Virus record (IMG/VR): IMGVR_UViG_3300048918_000186
Coordinates: 1 to 36,781 of that record
Direction: 5' to 3' (one strand)
Origin: a virus
Length of the DNA: 36,781 nt
A program made the translations under genes and the position numbers. Below, piece after piece: positions 1-36,781 of this stretch (position 1 is its first letter; each line of letters opens with the position of its first letter). Under the pieces are notes generated by a model. It had not been told where the DNA came from and did not search any database. It was given only the letters and a program-made list of their open reading frames with translations.

Positions 1-118
1 CTTCGGCGAAGCCTGGGCGCACCGTTCCCGGAAGAGCGGGAACGACCTGACCGCGCCGATCATAGCCATTGCGGCGGCGCTCACTCGGAATGCTGGAAAT
101 CCACGCCACCGTCTGGCG
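1..118. repeat. Left copy of 118-bp terminal direct repeat
   Basis: These bases match 36664-36781 at 117 of 118 positions; the single difference is t at 100 against a at 36763. Joining the two copies produces one continuous reading frame, so the repeat most likely reflects a circular (or circularly permuted) molecule whose assembly ends overlap. It is not an integration repeat, because the attachment site is elsewhere (35031-35216). Confidence 0.9.
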
Positions 119-8472: not shown

Positions 8473-9291
8473 ATGAGCAGACTGACAGACCATGACCGCC
8501 GCTTCGGCCCGGTCACCTACGGGCGAAGCGATTGGGCCGCATGCCGCGCTGTGTGGAGCAGCGGCGACGATGAGGAAACGCGGAACTCACTGACCGTCAA
8601 CGCGTTCGGCTGGGTTGCGCGCATCTGGCTGCCCACGATTATCCCCGCCTTCAAGGAAAAGCACACGGCCGCGTATTGGCCGGCAGAGACCATCGCGAGA
8701 ATGGGGCGTGACTGGTACCACGAGATCCACCCGCGCGAATACGGCTTCTGTGTCAGCGACGGGCATCTGTCGGTGTACTACGGCCGGCAGACCAACGACA
8801 GCAGATCGACCCAGCGGAGGGGCTGGTTCCTGCCCTGGCGGCAATGGAGGCACGTCCGCTATTCCCTGTATGACCGCGCCGGCGAGCTGTTCTGGGAGCG
8901 GCGCCAGAAAAGCGATATTCGCGGCATGCAGGCGTTCACCGACCAGTACGAAGCCAAAAAGGCCTGTCCGTCCGCTTCGTTCCTGATCCGAGACTACGAT
9001 GGCCAGGTAATCAGTGCGCGCACCGTGATTGACGAGCGTGAGTGGCGATTCGGTGAGGGCTCGTTCCGCTGGCTGAGCCTGTTTCGCGCCCCGAAGATCC
9101 GCCGCAGCCTGGAAATCGAGTTCAGCTCCGAAGTCGGCCGCGAAAAAGGGTCGTGGAAAGGCGGCCTGGTCGGAACCAGCATCGACATGCTGCCGGGCGA
9201 ACTGCACGAGGCTGCAATGCGGCGCTACTGCGCGCTGGAGCATCGCGACAAGTCCGGCAAGTACCGCATCGAGTTTCTGAAAGCGATTTGA
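8473..9291 (+). CDS. Conserved phage protein of unknown function, 272 aa
   Basis: A 272-residue protein with many aromatic and charged residues: RFGPVTYGRSDWAACRAVWSS at the start, a REYGF segment, LPWRQWRHVRYSLYD, and REWRFGEGSFRWLSLF. I recognise the overall pattern from phages and prophages of Gram-negative bacteria, but no activity is established. RBS AAAGGAAG lies upstream. It sits in the early rightward operon upstream of the replication genes. Confidence 0.82.
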   Translation: MSRLTDHDRRFGPVTYGRSDWAACRAVWSSGDDEETRNSLTVNAFGWVARIWLPTIIPAFKEKHTAAYWPAETIARMGRDWYHEIHPREYGFCVSDGHLSVYYGRQTNDSRSTQRRGWFLPWRQWRHVRYSLYDRAGELFWERRQKSDIRGMQAFTDQYEAKKACPSASFLIRDYDGQVISARTVIDEREWRFGEGSFRWLSLFRAPKIRRSLEIEFSSEVGREKGSWKGGLVGTSIDMLPGELHEAAMRRYCALEHRDKSGKYRIEFLKAI

Positions 9292-9474: not shown

Positions 9475-9683
9475 CCCATAAGGTGCTCGGGCCCGACGCC
9501 CAGGGCAAATACTCTGTCGGATACCCGACACCAGGTACAACCGGCTACACCGTCGTTTGCGACGGCTGCAGCGCCGATGCGGCCGAGGAAGAGGCTGCTC
9601 GCCGCAACCGCCAGCAGCAGGCCACCGCTCGCGCCATCGAGGCCGAGCGCAAGGCGTGCGGGCTGAGGAAGGAGCGCGGGTGA
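9468..9683 (+). CDS. Hypothetical protein, 71 aa
   Basis: A 71-residue protein starting MLTHKVLGPDAQG, with a beta-rich first half, a CDGC pair and a long charged C-terminal helix. Its stop overlaps the GTG start of the replication protein (GTGA). The ribosome-binding site GGAGG lies about 9 nt upstream. No family is recognised. Confidence 0.65.
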   Translation: MLTHKVLGPDAQGKYSVGYPTPGTTGYTVVCDGCSADAAEEEAARRNRQQQATARAIEAERKACGLRKERG

Positions 9684-10549
9684 AGCGTCCATCTTTTCAG
9701 TTCTACCCCGCCGACTGGAAGAACAATTCGAAGCTGCGCCGCTGCTCGGAAGCCGCGCGCGGCGCCTGGGTCGACATCCTCTGCCTGCTCAACGACTGCG
9801 ACGAATACGGCGTGTGCCGCTGGCCATTGACCGAGCTCGCCCGCGCGGCCGGCGTGCCGCTCAAGCTGGCCAAGGAACTGGCTGCCAAGGACGTGCTGAA
9901 GGGCGCAGACAAGGGCGCGCGGGACTACTCGTTCGCGCCACGCCACGCGGGCAAGGAAGGCCAGCCTGTGGTGCTGGTCGTTGTTGGTGACGGCCCATGC
10001 TGGTATTGCAGCCGCTTCGTTCGCGATGAGTATGTCCGCCAGCGACGTGGCCAAAGTTCGCGCTTCACGAGCGAAAACCAGCCGCCTTTGGTCGGCGAAA
10101 ATGAGCCACCTAACACTGCACCAAAGACCCCCATTGGTGAACGGCAGGGTGACGGCCTTACATCTACATCTACATCTACAAGTAAACCTACTACCCCTGA
10201 CGGGGTAGTCGTCGCCAGCCAGGCTGGCAACCTGAGCTCGCAGCGGCCAGACAGGGCGCCAAGGCCAGACTGCCCGCACCAGGACATCATCGCCCTGTAC
10301 CACGAGATCCTGCCCGAATGCCCTCAGGTGCGGGACTGGACGCCAGCGCGGGCCCAGCAGCTGCGCGCACGCTGGAACGAAGACCCGCGACGCCAGACCC
10401 TCGACTACTGGCGCCAGTTCTTCGTGTACGTGAAGCGCTGCGGCTTCCTGGTCGGACGCGGCGCCGGCGACAGGCCCTTCCTGGCCGACCTGGAGTGGCT
10501 GACCAAGTCCAAAAATTTCACCAAGATCCGCGAGGGAAAGTATGAATAA
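9680..10549 (+). CDS. Replication initiator / helicase-loader-like protein (O/DnaT type)
   Basis: A 289-residue protein with a GTG start (VKRPSFQFYPADW) overlapping the preceding stop. Residues ~5-75 (FYPADWKNNSKLRRCSEAARG and following) match the winged-helix domain seen in phage replication proteins of the DUF1376/YdaU sort. A low-complexity Thr/Ser/Pro linker follows (~150-190). The last ~90 residues resemble the DnaT/phage replication C-terminal domain. Placed directly upstream of dnaB, it probably recognises the origin and helps load the helicase, though the exact split of roles is unknown. Confidence 0.78.
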   Translation: MKRPSFQFYPADWKNNSKLRRCSEAARGAWVDILCLLNDCDEYGVCRWPLTELARAAGVPLKLAKELAAKDVLKGADKGARDYSFAPRHAGKEGQPVVLVVVGDGPCWYCSRFVRDEYVRQRRGQSSRFTSENQPPLVGENEPPNTAPKTPIGERQGDGLTSTSTSTSKPTTPDGVVVASQAGNLSSQRPDRAPRPDCPHQDIIALYHEILPECPQVRDWTPARAQQLRARWNEDPRRQTLDYWRQFFVYVKRCGFLVGRGAGDRPFLADLEWLTKSKNFTKIREGKYE

Positions 10550-11900
10550 CGCAACCAAAATGCCGCCGCACAGCCTGGAAGCCGAGCAAAGCGTGCTGGG
10601 CGCCCTGCTGCGCGACAACGACGCCGTCGACCGGCTGGGCGACCTGCGCGCCGAGCACTTCTACCTGTCCGACCACGCGGCGATCTTCCGCGAATGTATG
10701 CGCCAGATCATCGCTGGCAAGTCGTGCGACGTGATCTCGATGATGGTCGCGCTGGACGGCAAGATTGCCGAGGCCGGCTCCTACCTGAACTCGATCACGC
10801 AGGCCACGCCGTCCGCCGCCAACGTCGGCCGGTATGCCTCGATCGTGCGGGACAAGGCCGTGAAGCGCGCGCTGATCAACTTCGGCCGTGAGGTGGCCGA
10901 CGCCGCGGCCAATTCGCCGGAGGAGTCGGCGGCGATGCTCGACCAGGCATCCTCGCAGCTCGAGCAGCTGGCAGAGGCGCGCATGCGCGCTGAGCCAGTG
11001 CTCGCGCGCGCCGATCTGCCCAAGCACATCGCCGAGCTGGAGCAGCGTGCGGAAGGCGGGGTCAAGGCGATCTCGACCGGCTATCCGGACGTCGACAAGA
11101 AGCTGAACGGCGGCCTGCGCCGCGGCGAACTGGTGGTGCTGGCCGCGCGGCCGAAGATGGGCAAGACCGGCTTCGCCCTCAACGTTGCCTGCAACGTGGC
11201 GGCAGACCATTCGGTGCTGGTCCTGTCGATGGAAATGCCGCGCATGCAGCTGCACGACCGGAACATCGCCAGCCTCGGGCGGATCCCGCTGCCGCACCTG
11301 CTGCAGCCGTCGATGATGACCGATGAGGACTGGGGCAACCTCACGCACGCCATCGCGAAGATCGAGGGGATGAACCTGTTCCTCGACGACCAAGGCGGCC
11401 TGCGCTTGCTCGACGTTCGCATGAAGGCCAAGGGCACGAAGCGCCGCCACGGCCTGGACTTGCTGGTCATCGATTACCTGCAGCTGATGGAGGGCGACGG
11501 CGACAACCGCAACGCGCAAATCGAGGGCATCACGCGCGGCCTGAAGGCGCTGGCCAAGGAGCTGGACATCGGGATCATCCTTCTGTCCCAGCTGAACCGC
11601 AAGCTGGAGGAGCGGCCGAACAAGCGCCCGATGCCGGCCGACCTGCGCGATTCTGGCGCGATCGAGCAGGATGCCGACGCCGTGATCTTCCTGTACCGCG
11701 ACGAGGTGTACAACCCGGATAGCCAGGACATTGGGCTGTGCGAAGTGGATGTAGCACTGTGCCGCCAGGGCGCACCCGGCCGCGTGGCCCTGGCCTATAT
11801 CGGTGAGCAGACGCGCTTTGAATCCCTGGCCCACGGCTGGATGCCGAAGAAGCCCGAAGCACCTGCGCGCCGGCCGCGTGGACTGGCTGCGCACCTATGA
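10542..11900 (+). CDS. dnaB: Replicative DNA helicase DnaB
   Basis: A 452-residue DnaB-family helicase of normal length. The N-terminal domain begins PPHSLEAEQSVLGALL. The RecA-like core has Walker A ARPKMGKTG (202-210), Walker B LLVIDYLQL (307-315), and the LSQLNR and DLRDSGAIEQDAD motifs. It unwinds DNA at the phage fork as a hexamer using ATP. It overlaps the upstream loader-like gene by 8 bp and the downstream recombinase by 4 bp. Carrying its own helicase means the phage need not recruit the host enzyme. Confidence 0.95.
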   Translation: MNNATKMPPHSLEAEQSVLGALLRDNDAVDRLGDLRAEHFYLSDHAAIFRECMRQIIAGKSCDVISMMVALDGKIAEAGSYLNSITQATPSAANVGRYASIVRDKAVKRALINFGREVADAAANSPEESAAMLDQASSQLEQLAEARMRAEPVLARADLPKHIAELEQRAEGGVKAISTGYPDVDKKLNGGLRRGELVVLAARPKMGKTGFALNVACNVAADHSVLVLSMEMPRMQLHDRNIASLGRIPLPHLLQPSMMTDEDWGNLTHAIAKIEGMNLFLDDQGGLRLLDVRMKAKGTKRRHGLDLLVIDYLQLMEGDGDNRNAQIEGITRGLKALAKELDIGIILLSQLNRKLEERPNKRPMPADLRDSGAIEQDADAVIFLYRDEVYNPDSQDIGLCEVDVALCRQGAPGRVALAYIGEQTRFESLAHGWMPKKPEAPARRPRGLAAHL

Positions 11901-12946
11901 GCGTGCGCCTGTTCCGAGTCGGCGCTGGGCGCGCCTGGCACTACCGCTTCCAGGTCGCGGGCGTCCGGATCCAGCGCAGCACGCGCGAGACCGTCAAGGG
12001 CCGCGCCGAGAAGGTGGCCGAAAAGGCCTACCAGGATGCGGTCGTGCGCGCCAATGGCGGCCAGCCGGTACCGACTTTGCGCGAGACTGCGGCCGCATGG
12101 CTGGAGGTGCACCGCCCGATCGTGAGCCGCGCCCACGTGCGCAGCGTCGAGACCTTCATGAAGCTGCACATGTACTGGCTGGCCGATAAGCCGATCGGCG
12201 CGATCACAACCGAGGACGTCGAGATGGCGCGCAATGAACACCTGCGTTCGCACAAGCCGAGCAGCGCGAACCATTGGCTACGGATCCTGAAGCTGTTGGG
12301 CATGTGGGCAGTCAAGCGCGCCGAGATCCCCGCGTTGCCGTGGAAAGTTCGAATGTTGAAGGTGCAGAGGCGGCCGCGCGCCATGCTGCCGATCGATGTT
12401 GCGAACATCTGGTTCATGGCGATCGACAAGTCGGCGCGGTCGACGGCGGTAGGAACAGCGGTCCGTTTGATGTTTGGCGTCGGCCTGCGCGAATCCGAGT
12501 CATCGAGTGCGCGCTGGGAGTGGATCGATTGGGAGCGCGCTACCTACACACCAGGCATTACCAAGGGCCGGGAGGCCAAGCCGGTGCCGATGGCGGATTG
12601 GCTGATCGAGTATCTGGCGCCGCGGCGGCGTGAGTCGGGACTGATCGCTTCGCGCAGCGACGGCAGCCACCTACCGGCTGGCTTTTCCCGCAACGCGATG
12701 AAGCGAGCAAATGCAGCGTGCGAGCTTGTGGGAATCACACCGCATCGCCTGCGCGGCACCTTCGCCACGATGCTCTCCGAGGCCGGCGTGCCGCTTCAAA
12801 CCATCCAGGAAGTGATGCGCCACAAGCATCCGATGACGACGATCGGGTACCTGGAGCCGAACCTTCAGACTGCCGCCAAGGCTGTGAACGCCATTGGACA
12901 AAGACTTGGAAACGTCCGGCGAGAAAGTGGCGATGCGGCAACGTAG
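11897..12946 (+). CDS. Second tyrosine recombinase
   Basis: A 349-residue tyrosine recombinase with a complete catalytic set: Arg198 (GVGLRES), a Lys in the 223-228 strand, HRLR (His283, Arg286), a His at 309-311 (RHKHP) and Tyr318 (IGYLE). The N-terminal part carries a phage-integrase SAM-like core-binding domain. It is fused translationally to dnaB by an ATGA overlap, far from attP. It is therefore unlikely to be the main integrase; resolving multimers or acting during replication is a reasonable inference. It has no close similarity by eye to the integrase at 35230-36393. Confidence 0.9.
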   Translation: MSVRLFRVGAGRAWHYRFQVAGVRIQRSTRETVKGRAEKVAEKAYQDAVVRANGGQPVPTLRETAAAWLEVHRPIVSRAHVRSVETFMKLHMYWLADKPIGAITTEDVEMARNEHLRSHKPSSANHWLRILKLLGMWAVKRAEIPALPWKVRMLKVQRRPRAMLPIDVANIWFMAIDKSARSTAVGTAVRLMFGVGLRESESSSARWEWIDWERATYTPGITKGREAKPVPMADWLIEYLAPRRRESGLIASRSDGSHLPAGFSRNAMKRANAACELVGITPHRLRGTFATMLSEAGVPLQTIQEVMRHKHPMTTIGYLEPNLQTAAKAVNAIGQRLGNVRRESGDAAT

Positions 12947-13064
12947 TTTCATAGGAGAACGAAAATTATCAACAGTCATCCGGTACTTTCCAGCCGATTT
13001 CAAGGAAATGAGTTGGCCGAAGGCACGATCCGGCGATATCGACGAGTGCAATTTTGCCGGATAA
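12933..13064 (+). CDS. Small ORF after recombinase, 43 aa
   Basis: A 43-codon ORF starting inside the last codons of the recombinase gene in another frame, with GAGAAA upstream as a weak ribosome-binding site. The core (VIRYFPADFKEMSWPK, then GDIDECNFAG) reads like protein rather than random sequence. It fills much of an otherwise empty stretch. A TTATCAACA near-match to a DnaA box lies inside it (12966-12974). Confidence 0.4.
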   Translation: MRQRSFIGERKLSTVIRYFPADFKEMSWPKARSGDIDECNFAG

Positions 13065-13099: not shown

Positions 13100-13243
13100 A
13101 TGCCGACAAAATTTGCGCGCCGCCCGAGCGAAACAGGCAAAGGCGCGCCTGGGGGAGCAACCAGCGTTTTGCCGAAGGATTTTGTACCGAACAACGACAA
13201 GAGGACGAGCATGACGAACGCACCGGGCGAGGGACCAACGTGA
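13100..13243 (+). CDS. Small basic protein upstream of Q-like gene, 47 aa
   Basis: A 47-residue ORF (starting MPTKFARRPSETG) with GAGG upstream. Its TGA overlaps the GTG start of the next gene (GTGA), the coupling pattern used throughout this genome; that is the main support for both starts. It is Lys/Arg/Pro-rich and probably disordered. No function is recognised. Confidence 0.5.
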   Translation: MPTKFARRPSETGKGAPGGATSVLPKDFVPNNDKRTSMTNAPGEGPT

Positions 13244-13680
13244 AAGAGAAGCCGAGCATGAAGGAGATGAGCATCGAGCGCCGGCTACAGAACTGGGCGC
13301 ATTGCCAGCGCGGCAAGGGCGGCGGGTCAATGAGCACGCGAGAAACGCGTCGCGTCTCGCCGTATGGTGGTCAAGGCTACCAGTGCATGACCAACGTCGT
13401 GTGCACCCTGATGAGGGAAGCGGCGAACGGGCCGAAGGGTGGCGCGGCCACGCAGGCGAAGCTGGACTTCGAGGACGCCGCGACGATCAACGCTGCTTGG
13501 CTGCAGGTGGACACCAGGTGCAAGCTGCTGCTGCGCGACTTCTACGTGTTGGAGCGGGCAGTGAACGTCATCTGCCGCGAGATGAGCATCAAGCACTGGC
13601 CGGCGTCGCATTGGCAGCGCGAGCTGCGCGCTGCACAGGCCGCGATAGAATCGATCATCGGCGCGGACAGCGAAAAGTAA
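13240..13680 (+). CDS. Candidate late regulator (antitermination Q-like), 146 aa
   Basis: A 146-residue protein with a GTG start coupled to the previous ORF; ATGs at 13258 and 13267 are alternatives. The N-terminus (MSIERRLQNWAHCQRGKGGGSM) resembles the start of small phage antitermination-type proteins, and the C-terminal half is helical (WHWQRELRAA-like, ending AAIESIIG). Its position at the end of the early operon, ahead of a strong promoter followed by terminators, fits a Q-type activator of late transcription. Similarity is weak, so the assignment is partly contextual. Confidence 0.6.
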   Translation: MKEKPSMKEMSIERRLQNWAHCQRGKGGGSMSTRETRRVSPYGGQGYQCMTNVVCTLMREAANGPKGGAATQAKLDFEDAATINAAWLQVDTRCKLLLRDFYVLERAVNVICREMSIKHWPASHWQRELRAAQAAIESIIGADSEK

Positions 13681-14443: not shown

Positions 14444-15037
14444 ATGGGCCGCAAATCTTCTCTAACCCCCGAGCAGTGGGCCGAGGTAGAGCGCCGGCAC
14501 TTGGTCGACAACGTGTCGATCAACGCGCTCGCAGCGGAGTTCGGCGTGAACGAGTCCTCAATCCGCCGCAAGCTCAAGGCGAGCAAGGGCGAGTCGTCGA
14601 GCGGCAAGAACCGCCTCCAACAGCTGGCCGAAGAGAAGGTGCGCACCGATGCCGAGAGCAAGCGCGTCACCGCGCAGATCGCAGGCCTGCCAGTAGCCCA
14701 GCAGGTGATCGTGTCCGACTTGGCGCGCAAGCTGAGCAACATCAGCGAGCACATCGGTTCGGCTGCCGAGATCAGCGCGGCATCAGCACATCGCCTGTCG
14801 ATGCTGGCCAACCAGCAGCTGGAGAAGGTCGACGACGTGAACCCGCTCAGCAGCGCGACTGAGCTCAAGACGTTCGAGGCGCTGCAGTCGATGGCAAACG
14901 GCGCGAGCCAGATCCCGATGAACCTGCTGAAGGCGAACAAGGATGCCATCGACGAGCAGAACAAGCGCGTGAACGACCAGGCCAGCCCGGTCAACCCAGC
15001 ACGCGGTACCGTATTCAAAATCGTGAGGCCGGCGTGA
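14444..15037 (+). CDS. terS: Terminase small subunit (putative)
   Basis: A 197-residue protein with an N-terminal helix-turn-helix (about residues 7-45; NVSINALAAEFGVNESSIRRKL) and a long helical remainder. Small terminase subunits recognise the pac site and assemble as a ring on DNA. It lies directly before the large subunit, overlapping it by GTGA, and its order matches P22-like packaging modules. Specific sequence similarity is not obvious by eye, so the call rests on domain type and position. Confidence 0.82.
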   Translation: MGRKSSLTPEQWAEVERRHLVDNVSINALAAEFGVNESSIRRKLKASKGESSSGKNRLQQLAEEKVRTDAESKRVTAQIAGLPVAQQVIVSDLARKLSNISEHIGSAAEISAASAHRLSMLANQQLEKVDDVNPLSSATELKTFEALQSMANGASQIPMNLLKANKDAIDEQNKRVNDQASPVNPARGTVFKIVRPA

Positions 15038-16479
15038 CCGAGCTGCTCGAGCAACCACTGGAAATCGAACTGTTCGAGGCGTTCGAGTTTCTGCTGTACC
15101 CGAAGCGCGTCAAGGTCCCGTTCGGTGGCCGTGGCGGTGCGAAGACCGAGGAAATCGCCGAGATCCTGGTGTGGATGATGTGGCAGTACGGCACGAAGCT
15201 GCTGTGCGCGCGCGAATTCCAGAACTCGATCGAGGAGTCCAGCAAGGCCGTGCTCGAGGCGAAGATCGAGAAGCTGGGCCTGGGCGGCTTCTTCGACATC
15301 CAGAACGACGGCATCTATGGCCGCAATGGCTCCTGCGCGAAGTTCGTCGGCCTGGCGCGTAATGTGGCTTCGATCAAGTCGAAGTTCGGCTATAACATCG
15401 TCTGGGTCGAGGAGGCGGAAAACGTCAGCGAGAACAGCTGGAAGGTGCTGGTCCCGACCATCCGCGAGGCGAACTCAGAGATCTGGATCAGCTTCAACCC
15501 GAACGAGCCCGACGCGCCGACCTACAAGCGCTTCGTGCTGCCCTACATCGACCACATCAATGCCGAGATCGCCGCCGGCCGGCCTGGCGTCTATGAGGAC
15601 GATTACACCTACGTGCGCAAGGTGTCGTACCGTGATAACCCGCGCTTCCCGGACGTACTGCGCGTGGAAATGGAGCGCGACAAGGCCGGCAATTTCAAGA
15701 AGTACCTGCACGTGTGGGAAGGCGAGTGCAATGCCGACTACGAGGACTCGGTGATCGAGCCCGAGTGGATCGACGCGGCGATCGACGCGCACAAGAAGCT
15801 GAACTACAAGCCGCGCGGCGATCGCGTGGTCGGGTTCGACCCGGCCGACAGCGGCACCGATGCGAAGGCGCTCACGAAGCGCTACGGCATGCTGGTCGAG
15901 GACGTGAAGCGCTGGAACGACGGCGATATCGACGACGCGATCACACGCACCTTCGACGACGCCTTCGACTACCGCGCCGACATCATCGTCTACGACAGCA
16001 TCGGCGTCGGCGCCGGCGTGAAGGTCGGGCTGAAGGAGCGCATCGCCAACCGCAACATCGACGTCCAGGGATTTGGCGCGGGCGACTCGCCCTGGCCCGG
16101 CATCTACGAAGCCGACCGCAAGAATGAGGACGTGTTCCGGAACCTGCGCGCGATGGGCTGGTGGCTGCTGGCGGACCGATTCCGCCGTACCTATGAAGCC
16201 GTGGTCAAGGGCGAGTACCACGACCCGGCCACGATGATCAGCCTGTCGAGCGACATCAAGGACCTGCAGCAGCTGAAGACGGAGCTGGTCCGCCAGCAGC
16301 GCAAACGCACCGCAGGCTCGAAGATGATCCAGCTGGTGAGCAAGGACGAGATGCGCGCAAAGAAAATCCCGTCCCCGAACATGGCTGACTCGCTGATGAT
16401 GGCCTTCATGGTCAAGGACAAGAAAAAACCGATGCATGACTTCACGAAATCCGCCGCGGCCGGCGCAAGGGCACTCTGA
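15034..16479 (+). CDS. terL: Terminase large subunit
   Basis: A 481-residue packaging motor of the PBSX/Terminase_3 type, using a GTG start. The ATPase domain shows GGRGGAKT (31-38) and NIVWVEEAE (121-129). The C-terminal nuclease has acidic residues Asp269 (GFDPADSG), Asp321 (VYDS) and Asp452 (PNMADSLMMAF). It cuts concatemeric DNA and pumps it into the procapsid through the portal. Headful packaging is expected for this group and fits the circular map. Confidence 0.95.
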   Translation: MTELLEQPLEIELFEAFEFLLYPKRVKVPFGGRGGAKTEEIAEILVWMMWQYGTKLLCAREFQNSIEESSKAVLEAKIEKLGLGGFFDIQNDGIYGRNGSCAKFVGLARNVASIKSKFGYNIVWVEEAENVSENSWKVLVPTIREANSEIWISFNPNEPDAPTYKRFVLPYIDHINAEIAAGRPGVYEDDYTYVRKVSYRDNPRFPDVLRVEMERDKAGNFKKYLHVWEGECNADYEDSVIEPEWIDAAIDAHKKLNYKPRGDRVVGFDPADSGTDAKALTKRYGMLVEDVKRWNDGDIDDAITRTFDDAFDYRADIIVYDSIGVGAGVKVGLKERIANRNIDVQGFGAGDSPWPGIYEADRKNEDVFRNLRAMGWWLLADRFRRTYEAVVKGEYHDPATMISLSSDIKDLQQLKTELVRQQRKRTAGSKMIQLVSKDEMRAKKIPSPNMADSLMMAFMVKDKKKPMHDFTKSAAAGARAL

Positions 16480-18710
16480 TGGCAAATGACCTGAAACAGG
16501 CGCTGGAGATGTACCAGGACTCGATCGAGGCGACGCGCGAGCAGCGCCTGCAGATCGAGGAAGACCTGAAATTCTCCGACCCGTCGAACCCGCAACAATG
16601 GGACGAGGCGATCAAGCGCTCGCGCGAGACCGACCCGGGCGGCGCGCGGCCGTGCCTGGTGATGGACCACACCGGCCAGTACGTGGCCAACGTGGCCGGC
16701 CAGGTCGTCAAGTCGCCGCCCGCGATCCATACCGTGCCGGTCGGCTCGGGCTCCGACATCAAGGTGTCCGAGCAGCTCGACGGCATGCTGCGTCACTTCG
16801 AGTACTCTAGCCGCGCGCAGACCCACTACGGTGTCGCCCTGACCTCGGCAGCCCGCACCGGCGTGGGCTACCTGATCGTAAGGCCGGTCTATACCGACCG
16901 TGCGATGGGCTACCAGGAGCCGCGCATCTTTGCCGAGGCCGACCCGCTGCGCGTGGTGTTCGACCCGTGGAGCGTGGAGCTGGACGGCAGCGATGCTACC
17001 TTCGGCTACCTGCTCACGTCGATGAGCGAGCGCGAATTCGAGCACAAGTACGGCGCCAAGGCCGACAAGGTCAGCTTCGGCGCCGACCAGCGCGAGCCAG
17101 AGGGCCAGGCCGGGCGCCGCTCGATCATCGTGGCCGAGCAGTGGTACAAGGAAGACCAGATCCGCAACGTCATCATCTGGCTGGGCGTGGATGGCCAGGA
17201 GACCAGCGGCTCCGAGGAGGCATACTGGGCGGCGTGCAAGGCGGCAGGCGCCCAGCTTCACTTCGTGCGCAACTACCGCGACAAGGTCCAGTGCGTGAAG
17301 TGGCGCACGATGAGCGGTGCCGCGATCCTGGAGACGCCGAAGAAGCCAGACGGCAGCGATGGGCTCTACCCGGCTGACCACATCGGCATCGTGCCGGTCT
17401 ACGGCTACTGGGGCATCAGCGATAAGCGTTTGAAGTACTGCGGTATCCCGCGCCGGGCCATGAACGCGCAGCGCGCGTACAACTATCACAAGTCCGAGGA
17501 GCTGGCCTACATGGGCGGCGCACCGAAGTCGCCGTACATGGCATCCGTGCGGGCAGTCCGGGGACTGGAGGCGATCTGGGACCGCGCATCGATCGACTCG
17601 CGTGCTTACCTGCCGTACAACGACATCGACGAGGACGGCCAGCCGGTCGCGGCGCCAACCCGCGCGAATGTATCCGTGAACCTGCAGAACCACATCGTCG
17701 GCGCACAAGACGCGCTGCGCGACCTCGAGGCGTCGATCGGAATGTACCAGGCCAACCTGGGCGCGCCGAGCAACGAGCAGTCGGGTGTGGCGATCGACGC
17801 ACGCAAGGAACAGGGCGAGGCCAGCACGGCGCACTTCCCCCAGAACCTTGCTGCATCCCTCGGCCAGGTGGGCAGGATCGTGGTGCAGATGGCGGCCAAG
17901 CTCATCGACACCAAGCGGCAGCAGCGCATCCTCGGCATCGACATGAAGCCGGGCAGCGTCACGGTCGACCCCGAGCAGCAGCAGGCCGCCTTGGAGACTG
18001 ACCATGGCATCAGCATCAACCCGAACGTGGGCACCTATGACGTCCGCGTGGTGGTGGGCGCGAGCTACAGCACCCAGCGCAGCCAGGCGCAGGGTGCGCT
18101 CTCGGAGGTAATGCGCAACAACCCGGATATGACGCCGGCGATCGCGCCGCTGTGGGCCCAGAACCTCGACATCCCGCATGCCGACAAGCTGGCCCAGGTG
18201 CTGACCGCGATGGCGCCGGCGCCCGTGCAGGCGATCCTGAACCCGGACGCGGCCAAGCAGCCGAAGACCGAGCAGCTGATGCAGCAGGTCGAGCAGGCGC
18301 AGGCCGCGCTAAAGGAAGCGATCCAGCACGCGCACGACGCGCAGGCCGAAGCCGACCAGGCCATGCAGCAGCTGCACGACAAGCGCGAAGAACTCGCGAC
18401 CAAGGCCCGGGAGCTGGACATCAAGGCGTACGACGCCGAAACCAAGCGCCTGCAGGTGACCGCAGCGGCGATGACGCCCGACCAGATCCGGCTGATGGTG
18501 GCGGAGACCGTCGACACGATGTTGAGCCATCCCGACCCGCTGCCTGCCGAGGTGCCGAGCCAGCTGGCGGCGGCGCCGCCGCAGCAGCTGCCCGCCCCCG
18601 CGCCGCTGCCTGATCCGGCGCCCGAGCAATCCGATCCCGCTGCCCTGCAGCAACCAACCAACCCGCCGAGCGCGGGTTTTTCTTTGCCTGACCCACAACA
18701 AGGAGCATGA
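16479..18710 (+). CDS. Portal protein, P22 type
   Basis: A 743-residue portal, close to the length of the P22 portal (about 725). It begins with a helical segment (ALEMYQDSIEATREQRLQIEEDLKF) and has a long helical barrel region (LMQQVEQAQAALKEA and following) and a Pro/Ala-rich tail. The ATG overlaps the terminase stop by one base. The dodecameric ring is the DNA entry and exit channel. The last ~17 codons contain a terminator-like hairpin (18661-18685), so the extreme C-terminus may be poorly constrained. Confidence 0.93.
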   Translation: MANDLKQALEMYQDSIEATREQRLQIEEDLKFSDPSNPQQWDEAIKRSRETDPGGARPCLVMDHTGQYVANVAGQVVKSPPAIHTVPVGSGSDIKVSEQLDGMLRHFEYSSRAQTHYGVALTSAARTGVGYLIVRPVYTDRAMGYQEPRIFAEADPLRVVFDPWSVELDGSDATFGYLLTSMSEREFEHKYGAKADKVSFGADQREPEGQAGRRSIIVAEQWYKEDQIRNVIIWLGVDGQETSGSEEAYWAACKAAGAQLHFVRNYRDKVQCVKWRTMSGAAILETPKKPDGSDGLYPADHIGIVPVYGYWGISDKRLKYCGIPRRAMNAQRAYNYHKSEELAYMGGAPKSPYMASVRAVRGLEAIWDRASIDSRAYLPYNDIDEDGQPVAAPTRANVSVNLQNHIVGAQDALRDLEASIGMYQANLGAPSNEQSGVAIDARKEQGEASTAHFPQNLAASLGQVGRIVVQMAAKLIDTKRQQRILGIDMKPGSVTVDPEQQQAALETDHGISINPNVGTYDVRVVVGASYSTQRSQAQGALSEVMRNNPDMTPAIAPLWAQNLDIPHADKLAQVLTAMAPAPVQAILNPDAAKQPKTEQLMQQVEQAQAALKEAIQHAHDAQAEADQAMQQLHDKREELATKARELDIKAYDAETKRLQVTAAAMTPDQIRLMVAETVDTMLSHPDPLPAEVPSQLAAAPPQQLPAPAPLPDPAPEQSDPAALQQPTNPPSAGFSLPDPQQGA
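18661..18685 (+). terminator. Terminator-like hairpin within portal 3' end
   Basis: ACCCGC/GCGGGT stem with a five-base loop and TTTTTCTTT, lying in the final codons of the portal gene and 22 bp before the scaffold start. It could reduce transcription of the downstream head genes, or be suppressed by antitermination. Confidence 0.55.
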
Positions 18711-35229: not shown

Positions 35230-36393
35230 TCACTTTGCCCCAGAAATGGCGGGCTCATCAGGCGATATTAGATGGTTCCAAGGCAGTTTCATGTCGATCG
35301 CCGACACGTCCGGGACCGCTTCCTTGATGTAGATTTCGCTGGTCTTCGAGCTGGTGTGCACGAGGCGCTTTTGGATTTCAGCCAGGTGCTTGCCGGCCTT
35401 GGCCGCGTCGGTAGCGCCCAACGAGCGCAGATCCTTGAACGTCACGTCGTCCTTGATACCGGCGCGGTCCTTGGCGCGGTCCCACATCGAGATCAGGCCG
35501 GTCTTTGCGTAGGGCGTCCCCTTCTGGGTCGGGAACAGGTACTGGTTCGACGCCGGCAGCTCGTAGGTCTCTTTGATGGAGCGCGCGCGATCGATCACGC
35601 TCTGGATCGCCGGCGTGATGTGGATGTCGACCACCTTCCCGCTGCTCTTCTTCGTTTTGCTGGGCTGGATCCGGATGTAGCCGCCATCGATCTGGCTTTC
35701 CTTCATTGTCCGGATGTCGATCGCGCGCGCCCACAGCAGGTAGGCCATGTCGATGATGCAGGCGAACATCGGGCCGCTGGCGGTCGGAATTCGCTGGCCG
35801 GTGTCCTTGCGTGCCTTGCTGTACATGCCGGCGGCGCGGATCTTCTGCACCTGGTCGTGCGTCAGCAGCACGGTACGGCGCTCCGTCTCGAACTCGCCCA
35901 GGTCGAGCTGGTCGATCGGGTTGTCCTGGCGCAGGCCCAGGCCGGACACAGCGTACTTGAACAGCTTGGCGGCCAATGCGCCGTACTTGCGAGCCGTGTT
36001 CGGCTTGTTGGCGAACTTCTCGCGCAGGAAGTCGGCAAATTCCTTGGTGGTGACCTCGACCACCTGGAAGGCCTCGAACTCGTCTGCGATCACGTCCAGG
36101 TACCGGCCGTAATCCTCCTGCACCGGCTTCGTATACTTGCCGAGCTTCTTCGCCTTGAACTCGGCGCACAGGTGGGGCATGGTGCCTTCCACGTGGGTCT
36201 TGCTGCCGAGGAGTGTGGCCAGCGCGTTCAGCATGGCGATCTCGCCGTCTTCCACCGCGCACAGGCGAATCCAGGTCTTGAGCTCCTTCGTCTTCGGGTC
36301 GCGGATCTTCTCCGGCGCCACGTAGTAGTAGGCGTTGAATTTGATGTACACCCGGCGCGGGAGCCCGCGGTTCGTCTTGCGCTGCCTGTTCAT
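35230..36393 (-). CDS. int: Phage integrase (tyrosine recombinase)
   Basis: A 387-residue integrase starting MNRQRKTNRG; the ATG overlaps the DUF4224 gene's stop (ATGA), so the longer N-terminal frame is rejected. An arm-binding-like beta segment (RRVYIKFNAYYYV) leads, then a core-binding domain (YGRYLDVIADEFEAF) and the catalytic domain with Arg223 (WARAIDIRTM), Lys in 246-248, KDLR (Arg323; Lys replaces the usual His), His346 and Tyr355 (SEIYIKE). It recombines attP with tRNA-Pro(GGG). It is the last gene of the PL operon, next to attP. Confidence 0.93.
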   Translation of the reverse strand: MNRQRKTNRGLPRRVYIKFNAYYYVAPEKIRDPKTKELKTWIRLCAVEDGEIAMLNALATLLGSKTHVEGTMPHLCAEFKAKKLGKYTKPVQEDYGRYLDVIADEFEAFQVVEVTTKEFADFLREKFANKPNTARKYGALAAKLFKYAVSGLGLRQDNPIDQLDLGEFETERRTVLLTHDQVQKIRAAGMYSKARKDTGQRIPTASGPMFACIIDMAYLLWARAIDIRTMKESQIDGGYIRIQPSKTKKSSGKVVDIHITPAIQSVIDRARSIKETYELPASNQYLFPTQKGTPYAKTGLISMWDRAKDRAGIKDDVTFKDLRSLGATDAAKAGKHLAEIQKRLVHTSSKTSEIYIKEAVPDVSAIDMKLPWNHLISPDEPAISGAK

Positions 36394-36611
36394 TGCCTTG
36401 CTGATTTCCTCTTTGGTGCCGGACTGATCGGCGCCGGTGCGCTGCTCGGGTTCTTCACGTGGGCCCGGAGAACGCACACGGTGTTGTCGATCTTGCGCAG
36501 CTTGGCCGGGATACCGAGTTCGGTGAGCGCGGCCAGCTGCTTCTTCGGAAGTTTGTAATGGGTGATCCCGAAGATCTCTTCGGGCGAAAGGGTCAAGTCA
36601 TACTGCTGCAT
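36390..36611 (-). CDS. DUF4224 protein, possible excisionase-like factor
   Basis: A 73-residue protein with the DUF4224 pattern: LTLSPEEIFGITHYKLPKKQ, LAALTELGIPAKL, then a VLRAHV strand. These proteins commonly sit just upstream of phage integrases and are presumed to control or assist recombination. Here it overlaps int by 4 bp and starts 2 nt after the junction gene. A DNA-binding, excisionase-type role is an inference from neighbourhood. Confidence 0.82.
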   Translation of the reverse strand: MQQYDLTLSPEEIFGITHYKLPKKQLAALTELGIPAKLRKIDNTVCVLRAHVKNPSSAPAPISPAPKRKSARQ

Positions 36612-36613
36612 AG

Positions 36614-36781
36614 CTACTCCATCCCGGTCTCGGGCACGCGCCGCCGCTCCGCGCGAGGCGCCGCTTCGGCGAAGCCTGGGCGCACCGTTCCCGGAAGAGC
36701 GGGAACGACCTGACCGCGCCGATCATAGCCATTGCGGCGGCGCTCACTCGGAATGCTGGAAAACCACGCCACCGTCTGGCG
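36614..36781 (-). CDS. Junction-spanning small basic protein, C-terminal part
   Basis: This is the 3' portion (codons 9-63) of the gene whose start is at 142-140. The frame enters from the window edge in phase and ends with TAG at 36616-36614. It is Arg-rich (RRNGYDRRGQ, APRAERRRVPETGM) with no recognised domain. Continuity across the repeat supports the circular map. Confidence 0.7.
   Translation of the reverse strand, partial: RQTVAWFSSIPSERRRNGYDRRGQVVPALPGTVRPGFAEAAPRAERRRVPETGME
36664..36781. repeat. Right copy of 118-bp terminal direct repeat
   Basis: Second copy of the window-end repeat, with one mismatch to bases 1-118. The mismatch changes codon 15 of the gene crossing the junction from ATT (Ile) to TTT (Phe), leaving the frame open in both versions. 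Confidence 0.9.

Follow-up and report, generated by a model that had tools for sequence, protein, structure and literature searches.

The window analyzed here, a virus record from IMG/VR with a length of 36,781 bases, carries genes for a CI-like repressor, an O-like protein, DnaB, the large terminase subunit (terL), the portal, and the major head protein. From portal size and gene order, we infer that it belongs to a P22-like temperate phage. The two ends of the window carry copies of a direct repeat of 118 bp that differ at one position, which makes a circular or permuted genome probable. IMG/VR classes the record as linear despite this repeat, which the single mismatch probably hid. Elsewhere in the window, positions 8473-9291 on the plus strand give a strong match to Pfam Acb3 (E 1.4e-64), described by Pfam as an inhibitor of CBASS, an anti-phage defence. 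The subject of this study is a tyrosine recombinase gene directly behind dnaB, here called REC2, and the DNA around its 3' end. The relevant features are as follows.

1..118 and 36664-36781: terminal direct repeat, the copies 117/118 identical
9653..10549, plus strand: O-like replication initiation protein (PHROG_5810, PHROG_345)
10542..11900, plus strand: DnaB-type replicative helicase (DnaB_N/DnaB_C), overlapping REC2 by ATGA
11897..12946, plus strand: REC2, arm-binding-type tyrosine recombinase, 349 aa, ATG start (assigned from Pfam, PHROG, AlphaFold2, and Foldseek)
12918..12932, plus strand: putative arm-type block GGCGAGAAAGTGGCG, a pair of GGCG repeats with an 11-bp spacing, within the REC2 reading frame at its 3' end
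12964..12980, plus strand: core-type recombination site AATTA-TCAACAG-TCATC, with conserved arms and a variable 7-bp spacer, 17 nt past the REC2 stop
13240..13680, plus strand: small protein (PHROG_19609), between the REC2 site and the late genes
14444..15037, plus strand: putative small terminase subunit (terS), labeled from its position directly before terL and its conservation in relatives; the next module downstream of the REC2 site
15034..16479, plus strand: large terminase subunit, terL (PHROG_3717, PHROG_2)
16479..18710, plus strand: portal protein (PHROG_156)
35230..36477, minus strand: INT1, the second tyrosine recombinase gene of the window, a lambda-type int whose counterparts in relatives are close to the ends of contigs or prophages

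REC2 matched PF00589 (E 4.6e-18, above the 27.1-bit cut-off) and the PHROG_1 integrase family (8e-42). The sequence-only reading of this DNA had reported a full catalytic set, and all six residues are indeed present (R198, K223, H283, R286, H309, Y318). This R-K-H-R-H-Y set and the PF00589 match place REC2 in the tyrosine recombinase superfamily. Decay of the catalytic residues in relatives, which the same reading had raised as a counter-indication, was not seen: they are kept in 43-44 of 44 relatives, and the sole exception (L014) is an apparently frameshifted contig. An AlphaFold2 model built with 26 relatives (mean pLDDT 89) contains a beta-beta-beta-alpha N-terminal domain, the fold of the arm-binding domain in complex tyrosine recombinases; with a pTM of 0.63, the arrangement of the domains is uncertain. 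When the model was searched with Foldseek, Tn1549 Int ranked first and full-length lambda Int was aligned. Judged from the model, REC2 is of lambda/Tn916 (arm-binding) architecture, with an arm-binding-like N-terminal domain, a core-binding domain, and a catalytic domain, and the extra N-terminal domain sets it apart from simple recombinases of the Cre/Xer type. The class of complex (arm-binding) tyrosine recombinases follows a published classification (PMC8138268).

Aligning the DNA behind REC2 in relatives revealed a conserved region at positions 12918-12983, within and behind the REC2 3' end, that the sequence-only reading had missed. Most other non-coding DNA in this area has diverged. The region comprises the repeat block (consensus GGCGnGAAAGTGGCG) and, 30-39 nt further on, a core with the consensus RATKA-N7-TCATC, whose spacer differs between clades. 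The block lies within the 3' end of the REC2 reading frame at 86 of the 88 loci where block and core were both found, and the counts for the three reading frames across clades are 51, 34, and 1. Because the block is kept even though it is read in different frames, it is conserved as DNA rather than as protein. The exact block sequence of the window occurs nowhere else in it, and the repeat block is clearly conserved on one side of the core only. Directly right of the core, positions 12981-12995 on the minus strand hold a weak inverted copy of the block with 3 mismatches. It could represent a second arm that has degenerated or a chance match, given an expected number of about 10 for the window.

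The target of the recombinase had been described as not evident. Comparison with relatives speaks against this: block and core are both present beside REC2 at 88 of 102 non-redundant loci, and several of the remaining loci have variant cores, as judged by eye. Arm-type repeats near the core, a hallmark of sites used by complex recombinases, are thus found at these 88 loci and are presumably bound by REC2. Each of 11 near-complete genomes has exactly one copy of the core motif, located behind REC2. The layout is that of a single site adjacent to its recombinase gene, as in Cre/lox or TnpI/IRS, and some phages have a second site with a different spacer. A single core subtype, RATTATCNNCAGTCATCSG, was also sought in 2.9 million viral contigs by DNA pattern only. 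The scan returned 50 matches, 41 of them with REC2 directly upstream (the REC2 stop lies -2 to 28 nt upstream in 39, and in two, on clipped contigs, the C-terminus of REC2 is encoded by the DNA upstream); the sequence around the remaining nine is unrelated. The full repeat-plus-core pattern was found in 14 of 393 Oxalobacteraceae genomes, at 25 places, and its reversed control nowhere. These data, drawn from sequence comparison, indicate that the adjacent block and core are very probably the substrate of REC2.

REC2 relatives are widely spread. A sequence search of viral contigs found 32 loci, and a profile search reported 163 relatives, of which 80 were kept. Relatives also occur in the genomes of Massilia, Janthinobacterium, Rugamonas, Paraburkholderia, and Burkholderia. 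Among records of isolated phages there was a single match, partial and at 34%. Part of the wider family lacks the site (for example L042, L045, L047, and L048). Two elements located between tRNA-Leu and host genes (L039 and L040) encode a primase-like gene, a P4-like integrase identified by reading, and REC2 with its site, and so provide a non-P22 context for the unit.

The overlap of REC2 with dnaB is as the sequence-only reading described it, with the dnaB stop codon TGA at 11898-11900 and the REC2 ATG at 11897-11899. That reading took translational coupling to dnaB as the key relation, a view that the relatives do not bear out, many of them having a replication gene other than dnaB ahead of REC2. 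Where sequence behind a dnaB at least 63% identical to that of the window was available, REC2 was present at 24 of 34 loci; the 10 loci without REC2 also lack the site. Its usual place is after dnaB or other replication genes and upstream of terS-like genes. Since REC2 keeps its position behind the replication module and ahead of terS even where other genes stand in for dnaB, the pairing with dnaB is incidental, and we rejected the coupling as a functional link.

As previously noted, the genome already has an integrase, INT1. The claim that REC2 is remote from attP is plausible in that INT1 abuts the contig ends; attP itself was not located within the window. If REC2 were the integrase, its att site would be expected at the prophage ends, and this was not so in the lysogens of three relatives (L041, L043, and L046). 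These prophages are bounded by 50-58-bp direct repeats that resemble tRNA gene ends and lie 37-40 kb apart; between them, REC2 and its site are both intact. In L041, the left repeat adjoins INT1, as judged from a matching viral contig. Two further lysogens showed no convincing end repeats within the stretches examined. More generally, 13 of 15 relative contigs of at least 33 kb have a second PF00589 match, that of one contig (G008) falling below the curated cut-off. REC2 is apparently not the integration enzyme in the three lysogens checked.

We then considered host targets. In 393 Oxalobacteraceae genomes, searched at up to 1 mismatch for one spacer subtype, there was no recurrent REC2-free host attB, a stringency that a poorly matching attB could escape. 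Apart from those in one genome (G384), the matches that recur are at the 3' ends of REC2. Three Janthinobacterium hosts, searched for their site with up to 3 mismatches allowed, yielded only the copy of the prophage itself. Exact-type and degenerate scans together returned only prophage copies, REC2-linked copies, the stand-alone sites of G384, and chance-like singletons. Action on host sites, suggested earlier, may still occur at an attB that matches poorly.

In one lineage, a second site lies in the same orientation 0.97-2.1 kb downstream and has its own repeat block. The spacers of the two sites always differ (TCATCAG beside REC2, TT[AG]TGAA downstream), as would be expected if identical ones led to deletion of the intervening DNA, which carries varying small genes. 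The second site can be a homology island of about 90 bp between unrelated flanks. Comparing loci in pairs, 121 of 139 pairs that were at least 86% identical upstream across the REC2 3' end lose homology downstream, mostly 2-35 nt right of the core. These breakpoints are consistent with exchange at the site. We regard them as suggestive only and not as proof of exchange, because the REC2 start is also a homology breakpoint.

Sites also occur on their own. Two repeat-plus-core sites 2.5 kb apart, with no intact REC2 nearby, were observed in G384 (L155, positions 8501 and 10991); the DNA between them is AT-rich, with a GC of about 0.4 in a GC-rich genome. Satellite-like elements of Oxalobacteraceae (L315 and L316 in G360, L319 in G351) encode a primase-like gene and have a REC2-type site without REC2. 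This site adjoins a gene that, by reading, is probably that of the major capsid protein, and it sits about 0.67 kb inside a tRNA-type end repeat.

Several explanations could account for a recombinase gene and site at this position. REC2 and its site may form a second int and attP cassette that inserts at an attB on the host chromosome, a plasmid, or a prophage sharing little beyond the spacer, giving the phage two entry routes. Enzymes of the arm-binding kind usually serve as integrases, with the int gene normally adjoining its attP, and those similar to Tn916 Int accept targets that match poorly. The best fold neighbors of REC2 being Tn1549 Int structures, and spacers that vary between clades as coupling sequences would, fit this explanation as well. 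However, the three lysogens have their prophage ends elsewhere with the REC2 site intact, the 393 genomes hold no recurrent attB, and the repeat block is clear on only one side of the core. We therefore consider a second integrase doubtful, with a modest chance of being correct. The selected role could instead be the exchange of modules or accessory genes, with phages joined at the early/late boundary and two-site phages swapping the DNA between their sites. The abrupt loss of homology right of the core, the island-like second sites, and the differing cargo between sites are what such exchange would produce. On the other hand, any selected unit of gene and site beside variable DNA would give a similar boundary, as the REC2 start does; in Janthinobacterium two-site phages, cargo changes start 14-30 nt right of the core without a further flanking core; and pairs that share only the downstream side are nearly absent. 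We judge this role unlikely. A more specific version, that two-site phages are natural cassette exchange, with REC2 recombining like sites between phages to swap the intervening genes and satellites borrowing REC2 in trans, we hold to be quite improbable.

Two further explanations dispense with recombination at the site by REC2. The enzyme could have lost recombination and become a DNA-binding regulator at the site, similar to MrpR, the master regulator of SPbeta. MrpR did appear in the Foldseek search, as a weak match at rank 50, and the site is located before the late genes. A regulator of this kind is hard to reconcile with six catalytic residues kept across the family and with core-like conserved arms around a variable spacer, and we think it highly improbable. 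Alternatively, the site could be an element for packaging (cos/pac) or an origin of replication, located behind REC2 by chance and not its substrate. Its place upstream of terS, its short direct repeats, and its retention without REC2 in the G360 and G351 satellites would agree with such an element. However, the site accompanies REC2 on its 3' side even where terminases and replication genes differ between phages, and it is missing from relatives that have a similar dnaB and lack REC2, making a packaging or origin element very unlikely.

Inversion of a DNA segment had also been proposed. The window has neither a second nor an inverted copy of the site, so inversion is unlikely, and with no convincing inverted or duplicated segment we rejected an inversion switch. 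A search for dif-like sites with a 21-base pattern of the E. coli type, allowing up to 3 mismatches, likewise found none in the window.

Because the site is single-copy and has no recurrent host partner, the most likely reaction is site by site, between copies of the phage genome. We thus favor, with moderate confidence, the explanation that REC2 and its site are a dedicated unit acting on phage DNA, probably by recombining site with site for multimer resolution and occasional joining of phages. By analogy with known complex recombinases, the N-terminal domain would bind the repeat block, the core-binding and catalytic domains would bind and cut the core, and strands would be exchanged within the 7-bp spacer. 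Recombination between two sites would resolve dimers or multimers that arise in replication, and would occasionally join co-resident phages at the early/late boundary. Resolution of concatemers or dimers, one of the original proposals, stays a live option given what appears to be an intact second recombinase beside the resident integrase. Headful packaging depends on concatemers; in phages that use it, resolution that ran constantly would require timing. The REC2-less stand-alone sites, in the G360 and G351 satellites and at two places in G384, count against resolution, as do the family members without a site and the usual role of arm-binding recombinases as integrases.

The distribution of Holliday-junction (HJ) resolvases gives a hint in support of multimer resolution. 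Matches to PHROG_34 or PHROG_1770 were found in 4 of 13 contigs without REC2 and in 0 of 34 with REC2; the P value of about 0.004, calculated by hand, assumes independent contigs, and the contigs are related, so that the contrast is phylogenetically confounded. Pfam RusA and RuvC models gave no match, a negative that is uninformative because the PHROG models did find resolvases. RusA-like or other HJ resolvases were seen in REC2-less relatives of the window's dnaB (L189, L190, L195, and L199), downstream of dnaB in L189, L190, and L199.

A survey of Xylella described prophage-like regions with one or two integrases (PMC2605562). We found no description of the REC2/site unit in the literature searched. 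The enzyme class and an int gene beside an att site are already known; what appears undescribed in that literature is a second recombinase/site unit, apparently non-integrative, at the junction of replication and late genes in many integrating phages. When a temperate phage has a second recombinase, that enzyme is usually written off as a spare integrase; here, comparison identified its probable target. The unit, small and testable, recurs in many phages of Burkholderiales and in some satellites. If multimer resolution is correct, a Cre-like step operates in integrating phages in addition to homologous recombination; if module exchange is correct, the unit explains how mosaicism can arise at the early/late boundary. 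With either role, it is a new enzyme/site pair with natural spacer variants.

REC2 resembles several known systems in part. It shares with the lambda and Tn916-Tn1549 integrases the modeled domain plan, the catalytic hexad, and a gene beside an att-like site. Unlike them, it is not at the sampled prophage ends, coexists with a separate int, has no recurrent host attB at the stringency searched, and has a repeat block that is clear on one side only. Cre/loxP, Xer/cer, and TnpI/IRS resolve dimers or multimers, and a core with accessory sequence on one side is typical of resolution systems. Cre/loxP of phage P1 is likewise a phage recombinase beside a single site, and both systems likely keep replicating genomes monomeric. 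However, P1 is a plasmid prophage and REC2 phages integrate, and Cre lacks an arm-binding domain just as loxP lacks accessory repeats. TnpI/IRS of Tn4430 and Xer/cer have a core and one-sided accessory sequence as REC2 does, a likeness of layout, and REC2 differs in its arm-binding-like domain. Finally, RusA and Rap (NinG) of the lambdoid nin region occupy the same genomic neighborhood, where resolvases similar to RusA or RuvC are encoded in some relatives that lack REC2; those proteins are structure-specific nucleases and not site-specific recombinases.
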